Positions 47,502 through 54,702 of a stretch of DNA of 64,000 nucleotides are shown one piece after another. The position numbers were made by a program, and so were the translations under genes. The stretch is taken from NCBI RefSeq assembly GCF_022436675.1, contig NZ_JAKUJZ010000005.1, positions 248,001 through 312,000 of the forward strand, given 5' to 3'. The stretch's first letter is position 1; each line of letters starts with the position of its first letter. This DNA is from Rheinheimera hassiensis. GTDB taxonomy: Bacteria; Pseudomonadota; Gammaproteobacteria; Enterobacterales; Alteromonadaceae. Under the pieces are notes generated by a model, which worked only from the letters and a program-made list of their open reading frames with translations, ran no database searches and had not been told where the DNA came from.

Positions 47502-47617
47502 GCCTTGCTCCTTCTAACAAAATTGACTTGGTTGTTAGTCAGGGTCAGATGCGACGCTTGCCCGGCTTGGGCCGGATCTTCTTATGTTGCTTTGTTCTGT
47601 TACCGTTGCTGGCTTCA

Positions 47618-47709
47618 CAGTTAAGGGAACGCAAAGACGTCGTAAATACCTCCCTGTAGACTCTTCTGCCGCATCCTTGCGGCAGAGGCTTTGCTATACC
47701 CTTAACTGT
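47618..47709 (-). repeat. Modular stem-loop repeat, copy A (short form)
   Basis: Outer stem ACAGTTAAGGG/CCCTTAACTGT (perfect 11 bp), inner stem GCAAAG/CTTTGC, the conserved tail (minus strand AGTCTACAGGGAGGTATTTA, then CGACGT) and one hairpin CTGCCGCA/TGCGGCAG. 92 bp. Confidence 0.85.
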
Positions 47710-47793
47710 TTCGCTTTGTTATTTCGGTGATACATCAATCGTTAGCTGTGCGCTTCGGGGTTCCAACCTGCTTTTGACGTTTTGCTACAGCGA

Positions 47794-47960
47794 GAATCGG
47801 TTTGCTGTAAGCTGACCGTTGAAGGCATGGATGCCTGACAAATTCGTCCGGAACGAATTTGAACAGCTCCGCTGGTCCAACGGACAAACTTCACGGATGA
47901 AGTTTGTAATCGAGCCTACAGGGACGTATTCACGGCGTGTCAGCGTGAGCAAACCGGTTC
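47794..47960 (+). repeat. Modular stem-loop repeat, copy B (long form)
   Basis: Outer stem GAATCGGTTTGCT/AGCAAACCGGTTC (one T-G pair), inner stem GCTGAC/GTCAGC (47811-47816 with 47939-47944), five consecutive hairpins (GGCAT, AAATTCGT, CAGC, GTCC and CAAACTTCA stems) and the conserved tail GCCTACAGGGACGTATTCAC. 167 bp, opposite orientation to copy A. Confidence 0.85.
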
Positions 47961-47984
47961 GTGCCGAAGCCACTGAACCCTTGG

Positions 47985-48941
47985 CTACTTCACAAACAGC
48001 GAAGGCCGGTTCTGCGCCCAAAAGCCGTTAAAGTGATCCTTGCTGACAATAGCGCCGGTGTGTTCAACGACAAAGCCCGCTAAACGAGCAGCAAACTTCA
48101 CTGCATGCTGCGGCGCTATACCACCTAAACGCGCTGCCAGATAACCGCCGTTAAATGAATCGCCGGCTGCCGTGGTATCTACTACCTTCTTAACCGGATG
48201 CGCCAGCGCCGTAAAACCCTGTTGCTGATAGCGGCCGTTAATACCGTTTTTGCCATCTTTAACAATAATTTCGGCCACACCCAGCTCTGTTAACTGCTCA
48301 ACCACATCATTGGTGGTTTGTGCATCAAATAACACGCGATGATCGTCCAGCCCCGGCAGCGCCATATCAGCCAGGCTGTAAGCCTGAATAAAGGCCGCTT
48401 TGGCTGCATCAGCGTTTTGCCAAAGCGCCGGGCGGTAATTCGGATCAAAGATAATCTGGCTGCCATCGGCTTTTAACCGGCTAACCAGCTCGAACAATTG
48501 GACTCTGTCGGCATCAGATAAAATCGCCAGCGTAATGCCGGAGAAATAAAACATATCGCAGCCTTTAATAGCATCGTAATTTAACTGGGCGTTAAAACAC
48601 TGCAATACCTGTTTAGCGGCAGAGCTGTCGCGCCAGTAAACAAAACTGCGCTCGCCAAACGCATCGGTATTAATCATATACAGGCCGGGCCGGGCAGTTT
48701 TGGTGCGCAGCATCAGGCTGGTGTCTATTTTTTCCCGCTCAACGGCGCGTACCAGCTTGTCACTGATAAGATCAGTACCGACTGCAGTAAAAAACTGCAC
48801 ATCGACCGGGTTTTCGCAGGTACGCTTTAAGTACACGGCGGTATTAAACACATCTCCGGCAAAATTCTGGTGATAGACATTGTCGACCAACTGATAAAGC
48901 TCGACCATGCACTCGCCCATAATGACAATACGTTTGCTCAT
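47985..48941 (-). CDS. kdgK: 2-dehydro-3-deoxygluconokinase
   Basis: 318 residues, PfkB family. N-terminal MGECMVELYQL and the C-terminal ATP/catalytic motif DTTAAGDSFNGGYLAARLGG (Asp base). Phosphorylates KDG to KDPG. AAGGAG precedes its ATG; 11 bp after eda. Copy B of the repeat begins 25 bp beyond its stop. Confidence 0.95.
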   Translation of the reverse strand: MSKRIVIMGECMVELYQLVDNVYHQNFAGDVFNTAVYLKRTCENPVDVQFFTAVGTDLISDKLVRAVEREKIDTSLMLRTKTARPGLYMINTDAFGERSFVYWRDSSAAKQVLQCFNAQLNYDAIKGCDMFYFSGITLAILSDADRVQLFELVSRLKADGSQIIFDPNYRPALWQNADAAKAAFIQAYSLADMALPGLDDHRVLFDAQTTNDVVEQLTELGVAEIIVKDGKNGINGRYQQQGFTALAHPVKKVVDTTAAGDSFNGGYLAARLGGIAPQHAVKFAARLAGFVVEHTGAIVSKDHFNGFWAQNRPSLFVK

Positions 48942-48952
48942 GCCGATGCTCC

Positions 48953-49621
48953 TTAAGCTGCGGTTTTAATCTGTCTGGCAATGGCGGTCGCTTCAGCGGC
49001 CAGTGTCGTAATTTGGCTCCACTGCTGTGCTTTTACCAGATTAGCCGGGGTTAACCAGGAGCCGCCAACCACAAACACATTTTTCAGCGCCAAAAACTCA
49101 GCCAGATTATGCTGGCCAATACCGCCGGTGGGGCAAAATTTTACTTGCTGGAATACACCGCTAAGGGCTTTTAGCATTTCAATGCCGCCGGATAAATGCG
49201 CCGGGAAAAACTTTACTTCGCGCAAACCATATTCGTACGCCATAGCAATTTCCGACGGTGTCGCCACACCCGGTGCCAGTGGCAAACCGGTATCGATCAT
49301 CGCTTCAAGCAACTTTGGCGTGCTGGCAGGGCTAACCAGAAACTGCGCACCAGCGTCTTTACACGCATTGGCATCAGCTGCCGATAATATAGTGCCGGCA
49401 CCGACCAATAAATCTGGCAAGGCAGTGCGAATAGCGGTAATGGCGGCTAACGCCTGGCGTGTACGCAGCACTACTTCTACTGAACCGACGCCGCCATCCT
49501 GCAAAGCTTTGGCAATCAGTACCGCTTCGTGCGGCGTCTCTGCCTGAATAATGGGTAATAATGCCGGACCTTTCACCAAAGACGACAGCTGAGACGATAA
49601 CAATGGAGGTAAAGATGACAT
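48953..49621 (-). CDS. eda: KDPG aldolase
   Basis: 222 residues. GAGTILSAADANACKDAGAQFLVSP and the Schiff-base Lys in LREVKFFPAHLSGG are diagnostic; Glu in VEVVLRT. Splits KDPG to pyruvate and glyceraldehyde 3-phosphate. Start overlaps the uxuB stop by one base (TAATG) with AGGAG upstream. Confidence 0.96.
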   Translation of the reverse strand: MSSLPPLLSSQLSSLVKGPALLPIIQAETPHEAVLIAKALQDGGVGSVEVVLRTRQALAAITAIRTALPDLLVGAGTILSAADANACKDAGAQFLVSPASTPKLLEAMIDTGLPLAPGVATPSEIAMAYEYGLREVKFFPAHLSGGIEMLKALSGVFQQVKFCPTGGIGQHNLAEFLALKNVFVVGGSWLTPANLVKAQQWSQITTLAAEATAIARQIKTAA

Positions 49622-51090
49622 TAAATATCTCCTGCATAGGCCACCAGCGCTGCGGCTGGACGGGAAACTAATTGCTGATAAGCAGTATGCACTGCGCTAA
49701 AGAAGGTTTTGTTTAAACTCAGTTCTGCCGGGAACACGGCATCAACGGCTAAAAACAGCGCCACATCGGTATCGGCATTACCGGCACACTGAGCCGCAAC
49801 GGCCAGTAGCTGTTCTGCTAACGGGTCGACTAATTTTTCGTTGTCGCTATGGCGCTTAACAATAAAACAGCACCAGGCAGCGATGGCAAACGCCAGTTTG
49901 TCGATCGGTTTACCTGCGGCTAAGTTATCGCTAATGGCAGGCAGAATTCGCATCGGCAGCTTTTGCGAACCGTCCCAGGCAATTTGTGCCAGCAAATGGC
50001 GGATGGCCGGGTTACGAAACCGCGCTAATATATCCTCACTGTACTGCTTAACATCCAGCTCGGCCGGTGCTTTGAATGATGGCATAATTTCAGCAGTAAT
50101 CATCTGCTGAATAAACTGCGTTAGCACTTCATCCTGCATGGCATCGAATACGGTTTCATAGCCAAGCAAACAGCCAACATAGGCCAGGGTGGAATGCGGT
50201 GCATTGAGTAAACGCAGTTTGGCTTTTTCAAAGGCGGTGACGTCCTGAGCGTAAATCACCCCGGCTTGCTGCCACGCTGGCCGGTCTGCAGGTAAGATAT
50301 CTTCAATCACCCACTGCACAAAAGCTTCGCGTTTAATGGGCCAGTTATCCTGTACACCCAGCACGTCTGCCACCTGGGCTTTAATGGCATCGTCGGTAGC
50401 CGGTGTAATGCTGTCGACCATAGTGCAGGGGCTGATCAACTGCTGGCTTAACCAGTTGGCGATATTGGGGTCTTTTTGTTCAGCAAAGGCAATGAGTGCG
50501 TTACGCAGCTTATGGCCGTTGTCGGTCAGGTTGTCACAGCTAATGACGCAAAACGGCGCGATATTGGCTTGATAACGCGCCGCCAGAGCGGTAAACAATA
50601 AGCCAATGGCTGTGTTAGGTTGACCGCTACCGCTTAAGTCTTGCTGAATTTGGCTATGGCTTAAATCCAGCTTGCCGCTGCCGTTTAAGCAGTAACCTTT
50701 TTCGGTAATGGTCATGGTAACGTATTTGGTGCTGGCGGCAGTTAAGCGCGCTAATACTTGTGGGTATTGCTCGCTGGCGATCAGTACTTCCTGCACCGAG
50801 CCGATAACCTGATAGCTTTGTACGGCATCAAGCACGGCCAGGGTATATAAACCATCTTGCGGTGATAATGCCTGGCTGACATCGGGTGATCGCATTGATA
50901 CGGCGCTGATGGCCCAATCGCCGCCAAATTGCAGTGCCTGTTCGGTATACCAGGCTTGATGGCCGCGGAAAAAGGCGCCGGGGCCTAAATGCACTATGCC
51001 AATTTGTGGCTTGTGTTCGTCCAGCCGGTAAGCCGGAATTGGCAGTTTGCCGTTTAGGCTTGCCAGAGTCTGATTGTTTAGTTGTGTCAT
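49621..51090 (-). CDS. uxuB: Mannitol-dehydrogenase-family uronate reductase, UxuB-like
   Basis: 489 residues from ATG 51090; a longer open frame runs back through the repeats C and D but is not protein-like. IGIVHLGPGAFFRGHQAWYT is the NAD-binding N-terminus, VTMTITEKGYC and RQWVIED-type VQWVIEDILPADRPAW follow, and DGSQKLPMRI is typical of fructuronate reductases (UxuB) rather than UxaB. Nearby UxaA needs altronate, so this enzyme may reduce tagaturonate here. The ribosome site is weak. Confidence 0.88.
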   Translation of the reverse strand: MTQLNNQTLASLNGKLPIPAYRLDEHKPQIGIVHLGPGAFFRGHQAWYTEQALQFGGDWAISAVSMRSPDVSQALSPQDGLYTLAVLDAVQSYQVIGSVQEVLIASEQYPQVLARLTAASTKYVTMTITEKGYCLNGSGKLDLSHSQIQQDLSGSGQPNTAIGLLFTALAARYQANIAPFCVISCDNLTDNGHKLRNALIAFAEQKDPNIANWLSQQLISPCTMVDSITPATDDAIKAQVADVLGVQDNWPIKREAFVQWVIEDILPADRPAWQQAGVIYAQDVTAFEKAKLRLLNAPHSTLAYVGCLLGYETVFDAMQDEVLTQFIQQMITAEIMPSFKAPAELDVKQYSEDILARFRNPAIRHLLAQIAWDGSQKLPMRILPAISDNLAAGKPIDKLAFAIAAWCCFIVKRHSDNEKLVDPLAEQLLAVAAQCAGNADTDVALFLAVDAVFPAELSLNKTFFSAVHTAYQQLVSRPAAALVAYAGDI

Positions 51091-51120
51091 CAGTTTTTTG
51101 CCATTTGATTTAGGCTCCGC

Positions 51121-51210
51121 GGTCAGACAGCACACAAAGACGTCGTAAATACGTCCCTGTAGACTCCTCTGCCGCATCCATGCGGCAGACGCTTTGTTTA
51201 GCTGTCTGCC
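51121..51210 (-). repeat. Modular stem-loop repeat, copy C (short form)
   Basis: Outer stem CAGACAGC/GCTGTCTG (51124-51131 with 51201-51208), inner stem ACAAAG/CTTTGT, the conserved tail and one hairpin CTGCCGCA/TGCGGCAG. Same orientation and layout as copy A. Confidence 0.85.
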
Positions 51211-51237
51211 CGCTGCGCTTTTCTGCAATGTAGGCTT

Positions 51238-51402
51238 GGGCAGTTTGTTACACGCAGAGACGTCGTGAATACATCCTTGTAGACTTACAAACTGCTTCCT
51301 GCAGTTTGCCCTTCGGGTGGCTATGCCATTCAAATTCATTCCCGAAGAATTTGTCTCTCCAGCATCCCTGCTGGAGACGCTCTGCTTAGTAACAATCTGC
51401 CC
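51238..51402 (-). repeat. Modular stem-loop repeat, copy D (long form)
   Basis: Outer stem GGGCAGTTTGTTAC/GTAACAATCTGCCC (13 of 14 paired), inner stem GCAGAG/CTCTGC (51254-51259 with 51380-51385), conserved tail, then five hairpins including CAAACTGC/GCAGTTTG, AAATTC/GAATTT and CTCCAGCA/TGCTGGAG. It is the mirror orientation of copies B and E. Confidence 0.85.
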
Positions 51403-51424
51403 CGCTATAACGTTCTGTTTATTG

Positions 51425-52849
51425 TTACTTCAACTGATACGCTTTCTTTACCAGGCCATAGGTCAGCTCGTAGGCTAACTCACCGGCTTCTTCTTCGGTT
51501 AAGCGATGCTCGGCCACTAAGCCTGCCAGGAAGCGGCAGTCTATGCGCCTTGCTACGTCGTGCCGTGCCGGAATAGATAAAAACGCCCGCGTATCATCGT
51601 TAAAACCCACAGTATTATAAAAACCGGCAGTTTCGGTTACCTGATGGCGGAAACGCAGCATACCTTCCGGGCTGTCATGGAACCACCAGGCCGGGCCGAG
51701 TTTTAGCGCAGGGTAATGGCCTGCCAGTGGCGCCAGTTCGCGGGCATAGGTGGTTTCGTCCAGTGTAAACAAAATAATGTTTAAGCTGGCTTCGTTACCG
51801 TATTTCTGTAGCAAAGGTTTCAGGTTTTGTACGTACTCGGTTGGGCTCGGAATATCCGCGCCTTTGTCGGCACCAAAACGCTCGAAAATCACCTGGTTGT
51901 GGTTACGGTGTGCGCCGGGGTGAATTTGCATTGTCATGCCATCTTCCAGGCTCATGCCGGCCATTTCGGTCAGCATCTGGCCGCGAAACAGCTCTGTTTC
52001 TGCTGCTGTGGCTTTACCGCTTAAACAGCGTTGAAATAATGCCGCGGCATCTTTCATGGCTAAGTCTGCCGTAATGGCGGTAGGGTGGCCGTGATCTGTT
52101 GCCGTAGCGCCGTGCTCACGAAACACCTTACGGCGCTTACGCAATGCTGTCAGATAACCCTGCCAGCTCTTGGTATCTTCGCCGGTAATTTCGCCCAGTT
52201 TAGCCACGTTGGCGGCAAAATCAGCGCGGTCGGCGTCAACAACATCGTCGGGGCGAAAGGTGGTGATAACCCGGGTTTCAAAGCCGGTGCCTTTTAGTTT
52301 GGCGTGGTGTTTTAAATCGTTCAGTGCGCCTTCGGTGGTGGCAATCAGCTCGATATTAAAACGCTCTAACAAAGCACGCGGTTTAAACTCAGGCTTGGCC
52401 AGCTGAGCGTTAATGCTGTCGTAGTAATGATCAGCAGTTTCTTCACACAAAGTTTCGGTTAAACCAAATACATCGTGAAATACCGTGTCGAGCCAAATGC
52501 GCGAAGGTGTGCCGCGAAACAGGTAATAGTGCTTGGCAAAAATATGGAAGATTTTGCGATAGTCACTCTCAACTACTGCGCCGTCCTTACGGCGGATACC
52601 TAACTCTTCGAGCTTAATGCCCTGGCTGTACAACATACGAAACACATAGTGATCCGGCAGCAGCAATAACGCAGTGGCATTGTCCCAGTTGGCGTCTTCA
52701 GCAAACCAACGTGGATCGGTATGGCCGTGCGGGCTAACGATCGGCAAGTCTTTAATTTGCTGATATAAACGCCGGGCGATATCACGCACCACCGGATCTG
52801 ACGGAAATAAGCGGTCTGGGTGCAATTCTAAGCGACGACTCTGTGCCAT
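51425..52849 (-). CDS. uxaC: Uronate isomerase
   Basis: 474 residues from ATG 52849 (AGGA seven bases upstream; the in-frame TTG at 52855 is less likely). LPIVSPHGHTDPRWF carries the metal-binding HxH of the amidohydrolase-like fold. Converts galacturonate to tagaturonate and glucuronate to fructuronate. 55 bp after uxaA. Confidence 0.96.
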   Translation of the reverse strand: MAQSRRLELHPDRLFPSDPVVRDIARRLYQQIKDLPIVSPHGHTDPRWFAEDANWDNATALLLLPDHYVFRMLYSQGIKLEELGIRRKDGAVVESDYRKIFHIFAKHYYLFRGTPSRIWLDTVFHDVFGLTETLCEETADHYYDSINAQLAKPEFKPRALLERFNIELIATTEGALNDLKHHAKLKGTGFETRVITTFRPDDVVDADRADFAANVAKLGEITGEDTKSWQGYLTALRKRRKVFREHGATATDHGHPTAITADLAMKDAAALFQRCLSGKATAAETELFRGQMLTEMAGMSLEDGMTMQIHPGAHRNHNQVIFERFGADKGADIPSPTEYVQNLKPLLQKYGNEASLNIILFTLDETTYARELAPLAGHYPALKLGPAWWFHDSPEGMLRFRHQVTETAGFYNTVGFNDDTRAFLSIPARHDVARRIDCRFLAGLVAEHRLTEEEAGELAYELTYGLVKKAYQLK

Positions 52850-52904
52850 TTTCAAGTCCTGTTATAAAAAGTGTTTAAATTCAATATTTCATTAATTTCA
52901 CGCA

Positions 52905-54461
52905 TCAGAGCGTCACGCCATTTTTCCAGATGGCTATCTCGCGGTTATCTGATTGCTCATTGCGTGTGGCTTTGCCGGAGGCAACATCGATCAGATAACG
53001 GAAAAAGTCATGGCTAAACTGCTCGGCGTCCTGGCCTTTTTTCAGCAGGCCGCCGGCGTCAAAATCAATCCACTGTGGCTTGCGTGAGGCCAGCGAAGAA
53101 TTGGACGAAATTTTAACTGTCGGTGCCGGAAACCCCAGCGGCGTGCCACGGCCGGTGGTAAACAACAATAAAGTTGCGCCGGCAGCGGTTAAAGCAGTGG
53201 ATGACACCGCATCATTGCCCGGCCCTTCCAGCAGGGTTAAGCCACTTTGGCTGGCCATATCGCCGTAGCGGATCACCTGGTTGACTACCGCCGAACCGCC
53301 TTTTTGAATGGCGCCAAGCGATTTTTCTTCCAGCGTGGTTAAGCCGCCATCTTTATTGCCCGGGCTCGGGTTTTCATACACCGGCTGTTTGTTGTCGATA
53401 AAGTACTGCTTAAAGTCATTTACCAGGGTCACAATATCGCCAAACACCTGCTCATTCTGCGCGCGGGCCATAAACACTTGCTCGGCACCAAACATTTCCG
53501 GCGTTTCGGTCAGTACTACCTTGCCTTTACCGGCAGCGACTAAATCGGCTATGCGGCCAACCAGCGGGTTCGCAGTTAAACCGCTTAAGCCATCCGAGCC
53601 ACCGCATTTCATCCCCATCACTAAATCAGATACCGGGCACGGCGTGCGCTTATCATCGCGCATTCTGGCTACGAGCTCTTCAACTGCAGCTAAGCCCTGC
53701 TCTATTTCATCTTCCACCTGTTGGGCGTTAAAAGAGCGGATACGGCTTAAATCAACGCCTTCGCTTGCTGCCAGTAATTTGCTTAGCTGATTGTTTTCAC
53801 AGCCTAAACCCATCACCAGCACACCACCGGCATTGGGGTGTTGAATAAGCCCGGCCAGTAAGCGGCGGGTGTGGTCTAAATCATCACCGAGCTGCGAACA
53901 GCCAAACGGATGGGTAAAAGCATAAATACCGTCGATATCATCGCTGTATAGCTTACGCGCCTGCTCGGCCACCCGCATCGCGGCGCGGTTAACGCAGCCT
54001 ACAGTATTGATGATCCACAACTCGTTACGGGTACCTACTTTGCCATTGCCGCGGCGATAACCCATAAATTCGGTGGGTAAACCGGCCGGAAACGCCAACG
54101 GTTGCGCCTGACAGCCGCTATAGCGGTAGTCGACCTGGCCGCTTAACAGCGTAGCAAGATTATGCGAGTGAATATGCTCACCGGCTTTAATATCAGTAGT
54201 AGCGGCACCGATGGCAAAGCCGTATTTAATCACCGGCTCGCCTTTGGCTATGTTTGCCAATGCCACTTTATGCCCGGCCGGTACGGCCTGCTGTGCAGTT
54301 AACTGCGCAAACGGTTCTGGCAGTGCCACGCCCTGCGCTAGTGGTTGCAATGCAACCACTACGTTGTCGCGCGGGTGTACCTGCAACACCTGTAATTGCT
54401 CGCCGATATCTGCCGGTGTACTTAGCTTGGTACTGCAACCGGGTTTTAATTCTGTGCTCAT
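52905..54461 (-). CDS. uxaA: Altronate dehydratase
   Basis: 518 residues, slightly longer than the E. coli form (495) through an N-terminal extension. N-terminal SAF-like part (about 20-110), then NELWIINTVGCVN, GCSQLGDDLDHTRRLL, GLGCENNQ and KCGGSDGLSGLTANPL. Fe-dependent; converts D-altronate to KDG. Confidence 0.95.
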   Translation of the reverse strand: MSTELKPGCSTKLSTPADIGEQLQVLQVHPRDNVVVALQPLAQGVALPEPFAQLTAQQAVPAGHKVALANIAKGEPVIKYGFAIGAATTDIKAGEHIHSHNLATLLSGQVDYRYSGCQAQPLAFPAGLPTEFMGYRRGNGKVGTRNELWIINTVGCVNRAAMRVAEQARKLYSDDIDGIYAFTHPFGCSQLGDDLDHTRRLLAGLIQHPNAGGVLVMGLGCENNQLSKLLAASEGVDLSRIRSFNAQQVEDEIEQGLAAVEELVARMRDDKRTPCPVSDLVMGMKCGGSDGLSGLTANPLVGRIADLVAAGKGKVVLTETPEMFGAEQVFMARAQNEQVFGDIVTLVNDFKQYFIDNKQPVYENPSPGNKDGGLTTLEEKSLGAIQKGGSAVVNQVIRYGDMASQSGLTLLEGPGNDAVSSTALTAAGATLLLFTTGRGTPLGFPAPTVKISSNSSLASRKPQWIDFDAGGLLKKGQDAEQFSHDFFRYLIDVASGKATRNEQSDNREIAIWKNGVTL

Positions 54462-54536
54462 GTTCAGCCTTCCTGCACCTTGTCTAGCGGTGGCAAACTG
54501 GGTTTAAAAAACGTTGTTCGGGACTGTAGCAGGTGG

Positions 54537-54702
54537 AAACCGGCTTGCCCTAAACCAACCGTTGAAGCTCTGGGGCCGGACAAATTCGCCTGGAGCGAAT
54601 TTGAACAGCTCCGCTGGCCCATCGGGCAAACTTCACGGATGAAGTTTGTAATCGAGCCTACAGGGACGTATTCACGGCGTGTTGGTGTGGGCAAACCGGT
54701 TT
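54537..54702 (+). repeat. Modular stem-loop repeat, copy E (long form)
   Basis: Outer stem AAACCGGCTTGCCC/GGGCAAACCGGTTT (one C-A mismatch), inner stem ACCAAC/GTTGGT (54554-54559 with 54681-54686), hairpins AAATTCGC/GCGAATTT, CAGC/GCTG, GCCC/GGGC and AACTTCA/TGAAGTT, and the conserved tail. Lies in the 274-bp gap between the GH28 gene and uxaA; closely related to copy B. Confidence 0.85.

Follow-up and report, generated by a model that had tools for sequence, protein, structure and literature searches.

The window analysed here is a stretch of 64,000 nucleotides from Rheinheimera hassiensis (contig NZ_JAKUJZ010000005.1, positions 248,001 to 312,000 of the forward strand). It contains five intergenic palindromic elements, A to E, that are almost certainly copies of a mobile element of the YPAL kind. 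They lie among genes whose products have Pfam domains of aldehyde dehydrogenase, PfkB kinase, KDPG/KHG aldolase, mannitol dehydrogenase, UxaC, galactarate/altronate dehydratase and glycoside hydrolase family GH28. Elements A, C and D share the minus strand with the genes, and B and E are on the plus strand, the strand of an element being that of a tail common to all five. In the following list, stems are given as paired arms, and CANGGANG is a motif found in the loops.

47617..47709, minus strand: element A, short form; outer stem 47617-47627/47699-47709, inner stem 47631-47636/47689-47694; CANGGANG at 47672-47679 (apical loop) and 47649-47656 (tail loop); covariance-model match G000:C51:295619-295707, 92.7 bits.
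47798..47956, plus strand: element B, long form; outer stem 47798-47806/47948-47956, inner stem 47811-47816/47939-47944; CANGGANG at 47826-47833, 47892-47899 and 47919-47926; covariance-model match L118 1680-1838, 67.6 bits.
51122..51210, minus strand: element C, short form; outer stem 51122-51131/51201-51210, inner stem 51134-51139/51192-51197; CANGGANG at 51175-51182 and 51152-51159; top covariance-model match in the genome, 100.8 bits.
51238..51402, minus strand: element D, long form; outer stem 51238-51251/51389-51402, inner stem 51254-51259/51380-51385; CANGGANG at 51363-51370 and 51272-51279; additional GGA in possible hairpin loops at 51340-51342 and 51297-51299.
54538..54701, plus strand: element E, long form; outer stem 54538-54550/54689-54701, inner stem 54554-54559/54681-54686; CANGGANG at 54634-54641 and 54661-54668, GGA loop at 54592-54594; site empty in the relatives G026, G027 and G011.

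An earlier, sequence-only reading had located five elements with a common tail at these positions, and we find them there. The inner stems that it listed (GCAAAG/CTTTGC, GCTGAC/GTCAGC, ACAAAG/CTTTGT, GCAGAG/CTCTGC and ACCAAC/GTTGGT) and the copy-specific outer stems all pair, and the compensatory hairpin differences that it quoted between B and E are present in the sequence. An open reading frame called mechanically at 49621-51339 (minus strand) extends through element C into element D; its true start is probably near 51092, since the first Pfam domain begins at residue 114.

The elements belong to a modular family of two-tier long hairpins that enclose an apical and a tail hairpin. Read 5' to 3' on the tail strand, a copy consists of a copy-specific outer stem of about 10 bp or more, TAA, a 6-bp inner stem, CGT and the apical hairpin, followed by GAGC or a similar sequence, the tail hairpin, TTYAC, GRCGT, the inner stem, GT and the outer stem. 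The anatomy rests on 54 distinct copies found in the genus and positioned by a simple search for the arms, which put at least one of them (R3_G025) in the wrong register. The tail hairpin occurs in the variants TAC-ANGGAN-GTA, CCC-ANGGAN-GGG and TAT-ANGGAN-ATA. In long forms, additional hairpins separate the apical hairpin from the tail, and in B, D and E one of these has GGA in its loop. The variable outer stem is bracketed by ends that are partly conserved, C-type copies having GGCTYCRC-stem-GCACACAAAG, for example, and the insert at site E, judged against empty sites, is about 220 nucleotides long while its paired core is roughly 165 nucleotides. Neither observation supports the proposal that the elements copy their own flanks.

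The family is dispersed well beyond the window. The 20-nucleotide tail, with at most three mismatches allowed, is found at 23 places in the genome, against one for the reversed pattern. A covariance-model search, which the sequence-only reading had proposed, returned 55 matches in the genome (E<=0.1), so that further copies exist and their stems show compensation. The same reading had placed the repeats in a pectin/uronate locus; the Pfam domains of the neighbouring genes bear out that setting, but the repeats are not specific to it, as the 55 matches are spread over the genome. Three relatives have 49, 41 and 44 matches (E<=0.01). In wider samples, which were searched with stricter filters than the genome and its relatives, the element was found in 37 of 148 genomes and 15 of 66 genera of the order (E<=0.001), in 71 of 369 genomes and 64 of 272 genera of the class (E<=1e-4), and in 16 of 299 genomes of the phylum (E<=1e-7), all 16 being members of the same class. 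A locus of Xanthomonas arboricola (L204) bears an element scoring 55.5 bits. Searches of plasmids with three queries gave a 32-nucleotide hairpin match on four Salmonella plasmids for the first, 16 records for the second (15 of them a 30-nucleotide stretch and one a longer match on a Vibrio plasmid) and no match for the third. On a Salmonella plasmid the 32-nucleotide match, which is to a hairpin of element B, lies just downstream of pduE (L104 1501-1532). E. coli genomes searched with a 64-nucleotide query gave no match.

Several measures indicate that the fold is maintained, as the sequence-only reading had suggested. Alignment A1 comprises 28 of the 34 short-form copies of the genus, four near-duplicates and two copies with odd stem spacing having been left out, and its structure has 29 pairs. 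In A1, 93.3% of the 789 stem cells are paired, against 67.8% with shuffled partners. The covariation score is 0.625, compared with 0.184 +- 0.013 for shuffles (none of 500 reached the observed value) and 0.081-0.141 when partners were slid, and double changes occur in 20 pairs, a number reached by 2 of 500 shuffles. Alignment A2 holds 29 matches from 25 loci in other genera of the order; aligned by, and hence fitted to, the covariance model, it has 95.1% of cells paired (58.0% shuffled), a covariation of 0.975 (0.234 +- 0.016 shuffled, at most 0.162 slid) and double changes in 24 of 28 pairs. Of the five measures, only the count of further pair types showed no excess over shuffles in A1 or A2 (80 and 67 of 500 shuffles reached the observed value). 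Two-sided changes can also be followed between species at single sites: CAGTTAAGGG/CCCTTAACTG versus CAGCTAAGGG/CCCTTAGCTG at the A site, CAGTAACAGC/GCTGTTACTG versus CAGTAAAGGC/GCCTTTATTG at the C site, and, in the apical stem of the C site, CTGCCGC/GCGGCAG versus CTTTGGT/GCCAAAG.

The constant letters of the family are in its loops, not in its stems. This constancy, and the match of the loops to the CsrA/Rsm motif, had been missed in the sequence-only reading. In A2 the apical loop reads C, A, N, G, G, A, N, G with every named letter present in 29 of 29 copies; the tail loop reads A, N, G, G, A, N, its named letters again 29 of 29, with the closing C and G each present in 28. In A1, GGA is found in both loops of all 28 copies, and the loop A in 25 of 28 apical and 28 of 28 tail loops. 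The motif CANGGANG, which is named as an Rsm motif in PMC6849547, occurs at least once on the tail strand of all 55 copies in the genome and of 49 of 49 distinct copies from elsewhere, the latter drawn from 68 matches after array copies and weak ones were left out. It occurs at least twice in 38 of the 55 and 43 of the 49, and on the reverse strand in none of the 55 and 5 of the 49. Among hairpin loops predicted by RNAfold, those with GGA number 89 of 119 (own copies) and 82 of 95 (other copies) on the tail strand, compared with 2 of 114 and 0 of 93 on the reverse strand. The motif was counted by letters because RNAfold often closes an A-U pair across the loop, which makes hexaloop counts low. 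For short forms having exactly two motifs (38 of the own copies are short forms), a distance of 23 nucleotides between motif starts is seen in 20 of 22 own copies and in 35 of 43 others. That CsrA-type loops are kept while the stems change is a well-supported regularity, and we believe it to be new.

Constraint on the loops is also visible in orthologous copies. The flanks of the copies in the genome were compared with the loci of relatives, giving 161 site pairs, 81 of them with alignable element-sized sequence; removal of repeats and a requirement for an identity of at least 0.84 left 37 pairs. In these, A..GGA positions had changed in 4 of 265 cases, N positions in 23 of 132 and other element positions in 217 of 4242. 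When each of 19 copies was represented by its single most diverged relative, the counts were 2 of 126, 14 of 63 and 129 of 2077 (Fisher, p=5e-6 for the core versus N and 0.016 for the core versus other positions). Of the 37 pairs, copies sense to the upstream gene had changed A..GGA in 1 of 123 cases versus 17 of 62 for N, and copies with no assigned orientation in 1 of 4 versus 0 of 2. Between species, the tail loops at sites A and C differ in their N letters and agree in A..GGA.

The sequence-only reading recognised a modular folded family and gave it no name; sequence core, fold and a match to Ysr224 now assign it to the YPAL/RU-2 kind. When aligned to the RU-2/YPAL sequence of Yersinia pestis as printed in PMC2759123, A scores 69 and C 67, against maxima of 33 and 36 among 300 shuffles; over the five copies the scores range from 42 to 69 and the shuffled maxima from 29 to 36. 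The printed RU-2 folds with the same two hairpins, and its two CANGGANG motifs start 24 nucleotides apart. YPAL/RU-2 (about 168 bp), as described there, shares with the present family the core gagcctacatggatgtatttacggcgt, the two-tier long hairpin, the apical and tail hairpins and an intergenic, multi-copy and mobile habit; the present family differs in its many inner and outer stems, its long forms with extra hairpins and its presence in many families of the class. The kind of element is thus already known, but its range is far broader than Yersinia. The YPAL passages of PMC2229807 and PMC2759123 do not mention a CsrA motif, and in the portions of the literature that our search covered we found no report of CsrA sites in YPAL. 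Target duplications of 3-26 bp, targets that span or adjoin dyad symmetry, and a comparison of empty with filled sites are described for YPAL in PMC2229807. Empty and filled sites are found here in the same way, at the E site and in the A+B region, which is empty in G027 and G005; no clear target duplication is seen by eye at site E, and at other sites the flanks diverge.

Rfam models a related repeat as Ysr224 (Yersinia sRNA 224, RF02770). A locus from another family of the order (L151, 1517-1623) scores 68.1 bits with our model and 83.6 bits with Ysr224, whose gathering cut-off is 70. The window copies are therefore not filed as Ysr224 members, A and C scoring 35.2 and 30.1 bits; 2 of 8 loci scanned also gave Ysr224 matches (L018, 26.1 bits; L019, 28.4 bits), and none of the 31 genomes of the genus has a match above the cut-off. 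Ysr224 differs in being modelled on the opposite (UCC) strand, which suggests that the Rfam entry describes a repeat family from the strand that lacks GGA loops. Available descriptions of Ysr224 have it multi-copy and expressed in Y. ruckeri (PMC12112432) and among the most prevalent small RNAs (PMC9029176).

ERIC is likewise an intergenic hairpin element of enterobacteria, and the present tail may resemble it.

The elements lie mostly at the 3' ends of genes and turn over at persistent sites. For the 55 own copies the neighbouring genes are convergent in 20 cases, both sense in 13, both antisense in 17 and divergent in 3, with one neighbour not called in 2; these counts come from mechanical calls of open reading frames with no intergenic baseline. 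By inspection the nearest facing stop codon is mostly 10-60 nucleotides away. Site E holds a different, reversed copy in G021, G015, G014 and G016, and the forms alternate at orthologous sites in close relatives: E is long here and short in G024, and alternation was also noted for L170 versus G024, L171, L169 and L174. The extra hairpins of the long form thus come and go as a block, and a site persists while its occupant changes. Different or reversed copies at the same site, in flanks about 90% identical, were also seen in the pairs L114/L276, L122/L332, L132/L315 and L185/L347. Of 22 site pairs, hand-picked mostly for looking discordant, 19 align better in reverse. Inversion in place does not fit as a general reading: flank homology stops before the element in most of 12 pairs examined, with proximal flanks that differ, and replacement or independent insertion fits better. 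It may have occurred at L176/L267 and at L185/L347 and L299, where alignable flank reaches almost to the element. Genome G128 has arrays of alternating orientation (L186 1472-2343, L187 1122-2104 and L188 1272-2267); in the first, element starts are about 150-160 nucleotides apart, resembling the BIME arrays of REP sequences.

In the explanation that we favour, the elements are dispersed, non-coding, mobile palindromes that are gained, lost and replaced, and that change from long to short form or back, at intergenic sites just past stop codons. Where the tail strand is transcribed, the RNA is predicted to display, typically, two C-ANGGAN-G loops whose starts are about 23 nucleotides apart. Such paired CsrA/RsmA-type sites would be within reach of a single CsrA/RsmA dimer, which bridges sites 10-63 nucleotides apart with an optimum above 18. 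The RNA would then most likely bind CsrA/RsmA, serving host mRNAs as a 3'-end mark or acting as one of many small sponges. We infer this binding, and any regulatory effect, from motif and constraint; on that footing a CsrA function is the best single reading and one we moderately favour, and the loops have probably been kept because of CsrA/RsmA.

In systematic evolution of ligands by exponential enrichment (SELEX), the CsrA consensus reported in PMC7652899 is RUACARGGAUGU, beside which the tail reads CUACANGGANGU. According to the same account, GGA was in a hairpin loop in 51 of 55 SELEX ligands, 44 of these loops having six nucleotides, and the stems mostly had four or fewer contiguous pairs. 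The host has csrA, with one CsrA match in its genome (E 6.6e-25), as do 313 of 369 genomes of the class (PF02599). Among genomes at least 90% complete and at most 5% contaminated, csrA is present in 57 of 58 with the element versus 223 of 256 without it (p=0.006), the element and csrA lists having been matched by hand. A possible lead comes from Pseudomonas putida, in which intergenic RNA next to ISPpu8, and a "long palindromic region", came down with RsmA, RsmE and RsmI (PMC7937890). Repeated GGA in the hairpin loops of one RNA is also the feature that likens the elements to sponges of the CsrB/RsmZ type (PMC7652899); the difference is that a CsrB-like RNA has a locus of its own here, apart from these dispersed, mobile elements. 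At least one Rfam CsrB match, below the cut-off of 71, is present in every one of the 31 genomes searched in the genus, which makes it unlikely that the elements are the sole Csr sponge. The genome itself has two candidate CsrB-like small RNAs, at G000:C11:180235-180535 and 473884-474176, scoring 36.9 and 28.3 bits and thus below that cut-off.

A number of observations weigh against a CsrA function. The chief one is that there is no sense-strand bias among copies between co-directional genes (13 sense versus 17 antisense of 55 copies), so many copies would be read on the strand without GGA, and in the 37 pairs antisense copies also keep A..GGA (2 of 138 changed versus 6 of 68 for N). The strand modelled as Ysr224 is likewise the one opposite to the GGA loops. 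A single CANGGANG is present in 17 of the 55 own copies, the apical hairpin of element E is degenerate and lacks the motif, many apical stems are longer than the four or fewer contiguous pairs favoured in SELEX, and RNAfold frequently predicts an A-U closure across the loop. In the 81-pair set, to which no identity filter had been applied, the contrast is much weaker: changes were counted at 60 of 459 core, 51 of 228 N and 1187 of 8088 other positions, because that set mixes different and reversed copies. Over all genomes of the class the association with csrA is weaker (66 of 71 with the element versus 247 of 298 without, p=0.02), and both association tests ignore phylogeny. Five element-bearing genomes have no csrA match (G185, G246, G277, G372 and G518), four of them 67-88% complete and one 98%.

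The rival that survives best is that a mobilising enzyme recognises the loops on folded single-stranded DNA, so that conservation reflects active copies and CsrA is irrelevant; we regard this as rather unlikely, if the most serious competitor. REP hairpins are recognised in this manner by RAYT transposases, and share with the present elements their palindromic, intergenic nature and their occurrence in inverted pairs and arrays. Presence and absence, turnover, insertion in both orientations, the retention of GGA by antisense copies and the BIME-like inverted pairs and alternating arrays would all be expected of it. The elements differ from REP and BIME in sequence and size, and RAYT (Y1 transposase) does not hold up as the obligate mobiliser: an element match was found at 1 of 30 Y1 loci scanned, out of 58 Y1 matches in the genus, and the genome has only a partial Y1 match, with none in G003, G024 and G026 despite their elements. 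No mobiliser was found in this search, which was limited to RAYT/Y1 and did not extend to other transposase families. Two further points tell against the enzyme: inserted orthologous copies keep A..GGA, which a constraint acting on donors alone would not need, and the motif is that of CsrA down to the closing C-G and the free N positions.

A second alternative concerns the stems. During replication, template switching from one arm of a quasi-palindrome to the other could generate outer-stem covariation in place of selection, and the long, copy-specific and nearly perfect outer stems, like the double changes that separate some orthologues (A site, G030/G006; C site, G008), are what it would produce. 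We think it an improbable account, because covariation extends to the 3-bp tail stem and to the apical stems (TAC/GTA, CCC/GGG, TAT/ATA) and because G-U exceeds A-C in the outer stems on the tail strand by 11:7 in A1, 25:4 in A2 and 42:4 in a third alignment, A3. Such an excess is what selection on a folded strand would give, although it was the model that selected the copies of A2 and A3, and the rows are related.

The elements might also be plain 3'-end hairpins that protect or terminate mRNAs, with only the stems mattering. Copies are mostly tens of nucleotides past a stop codon, divergent regions hold just 3 of the 55 (again with no baseline), the sequence is palindromic on either strand, and several sites remain filled by changing occupants. 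This reading leaves the constant A..GGA in two loops, with N free, unexplained, and no U-run follows most outer stems (by inspection, uncounted); it has little chance of being sufficient. That the elements are a cis-regulatory RNA of pectin/uronate genes, as five copies among genes with uronate/pectin domains might imply, is largely refuted and barely credible, given 50 further matches elsewhere in the genome and relatives whose orthologous loci lack some or all of the copies.

Published accounts of YPAL-type repeats, in the parts that discuss their role, give them only that of RNA hairpins that may affect mRNAs. Should CsrA bind these loops, regulatory wiring would be supplied by a mobile repeat to a regulator that acts globally on carbon use, motility and biofilm, and the titration of CsrA could depend on the repeat load. 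The CsrA reading might also explain the palindromic intergenic RNAs that co-purified with the Rsm proteins of P. putida. We suggest, tentatively and as a possibility we would not yet back, that the family spreads paired CsrA/RsmA sites through the gammaproteobacteria, with dozens of copies acting jointly as a distributed sponge, or as portable 3'-end handles that connect nearby mRNAs to the Csr network, and with copy number and long or short form tuning the availability of CsrA from one species to another. If this were true, selection on the loops would explain the persistence of YPAL-type elements.

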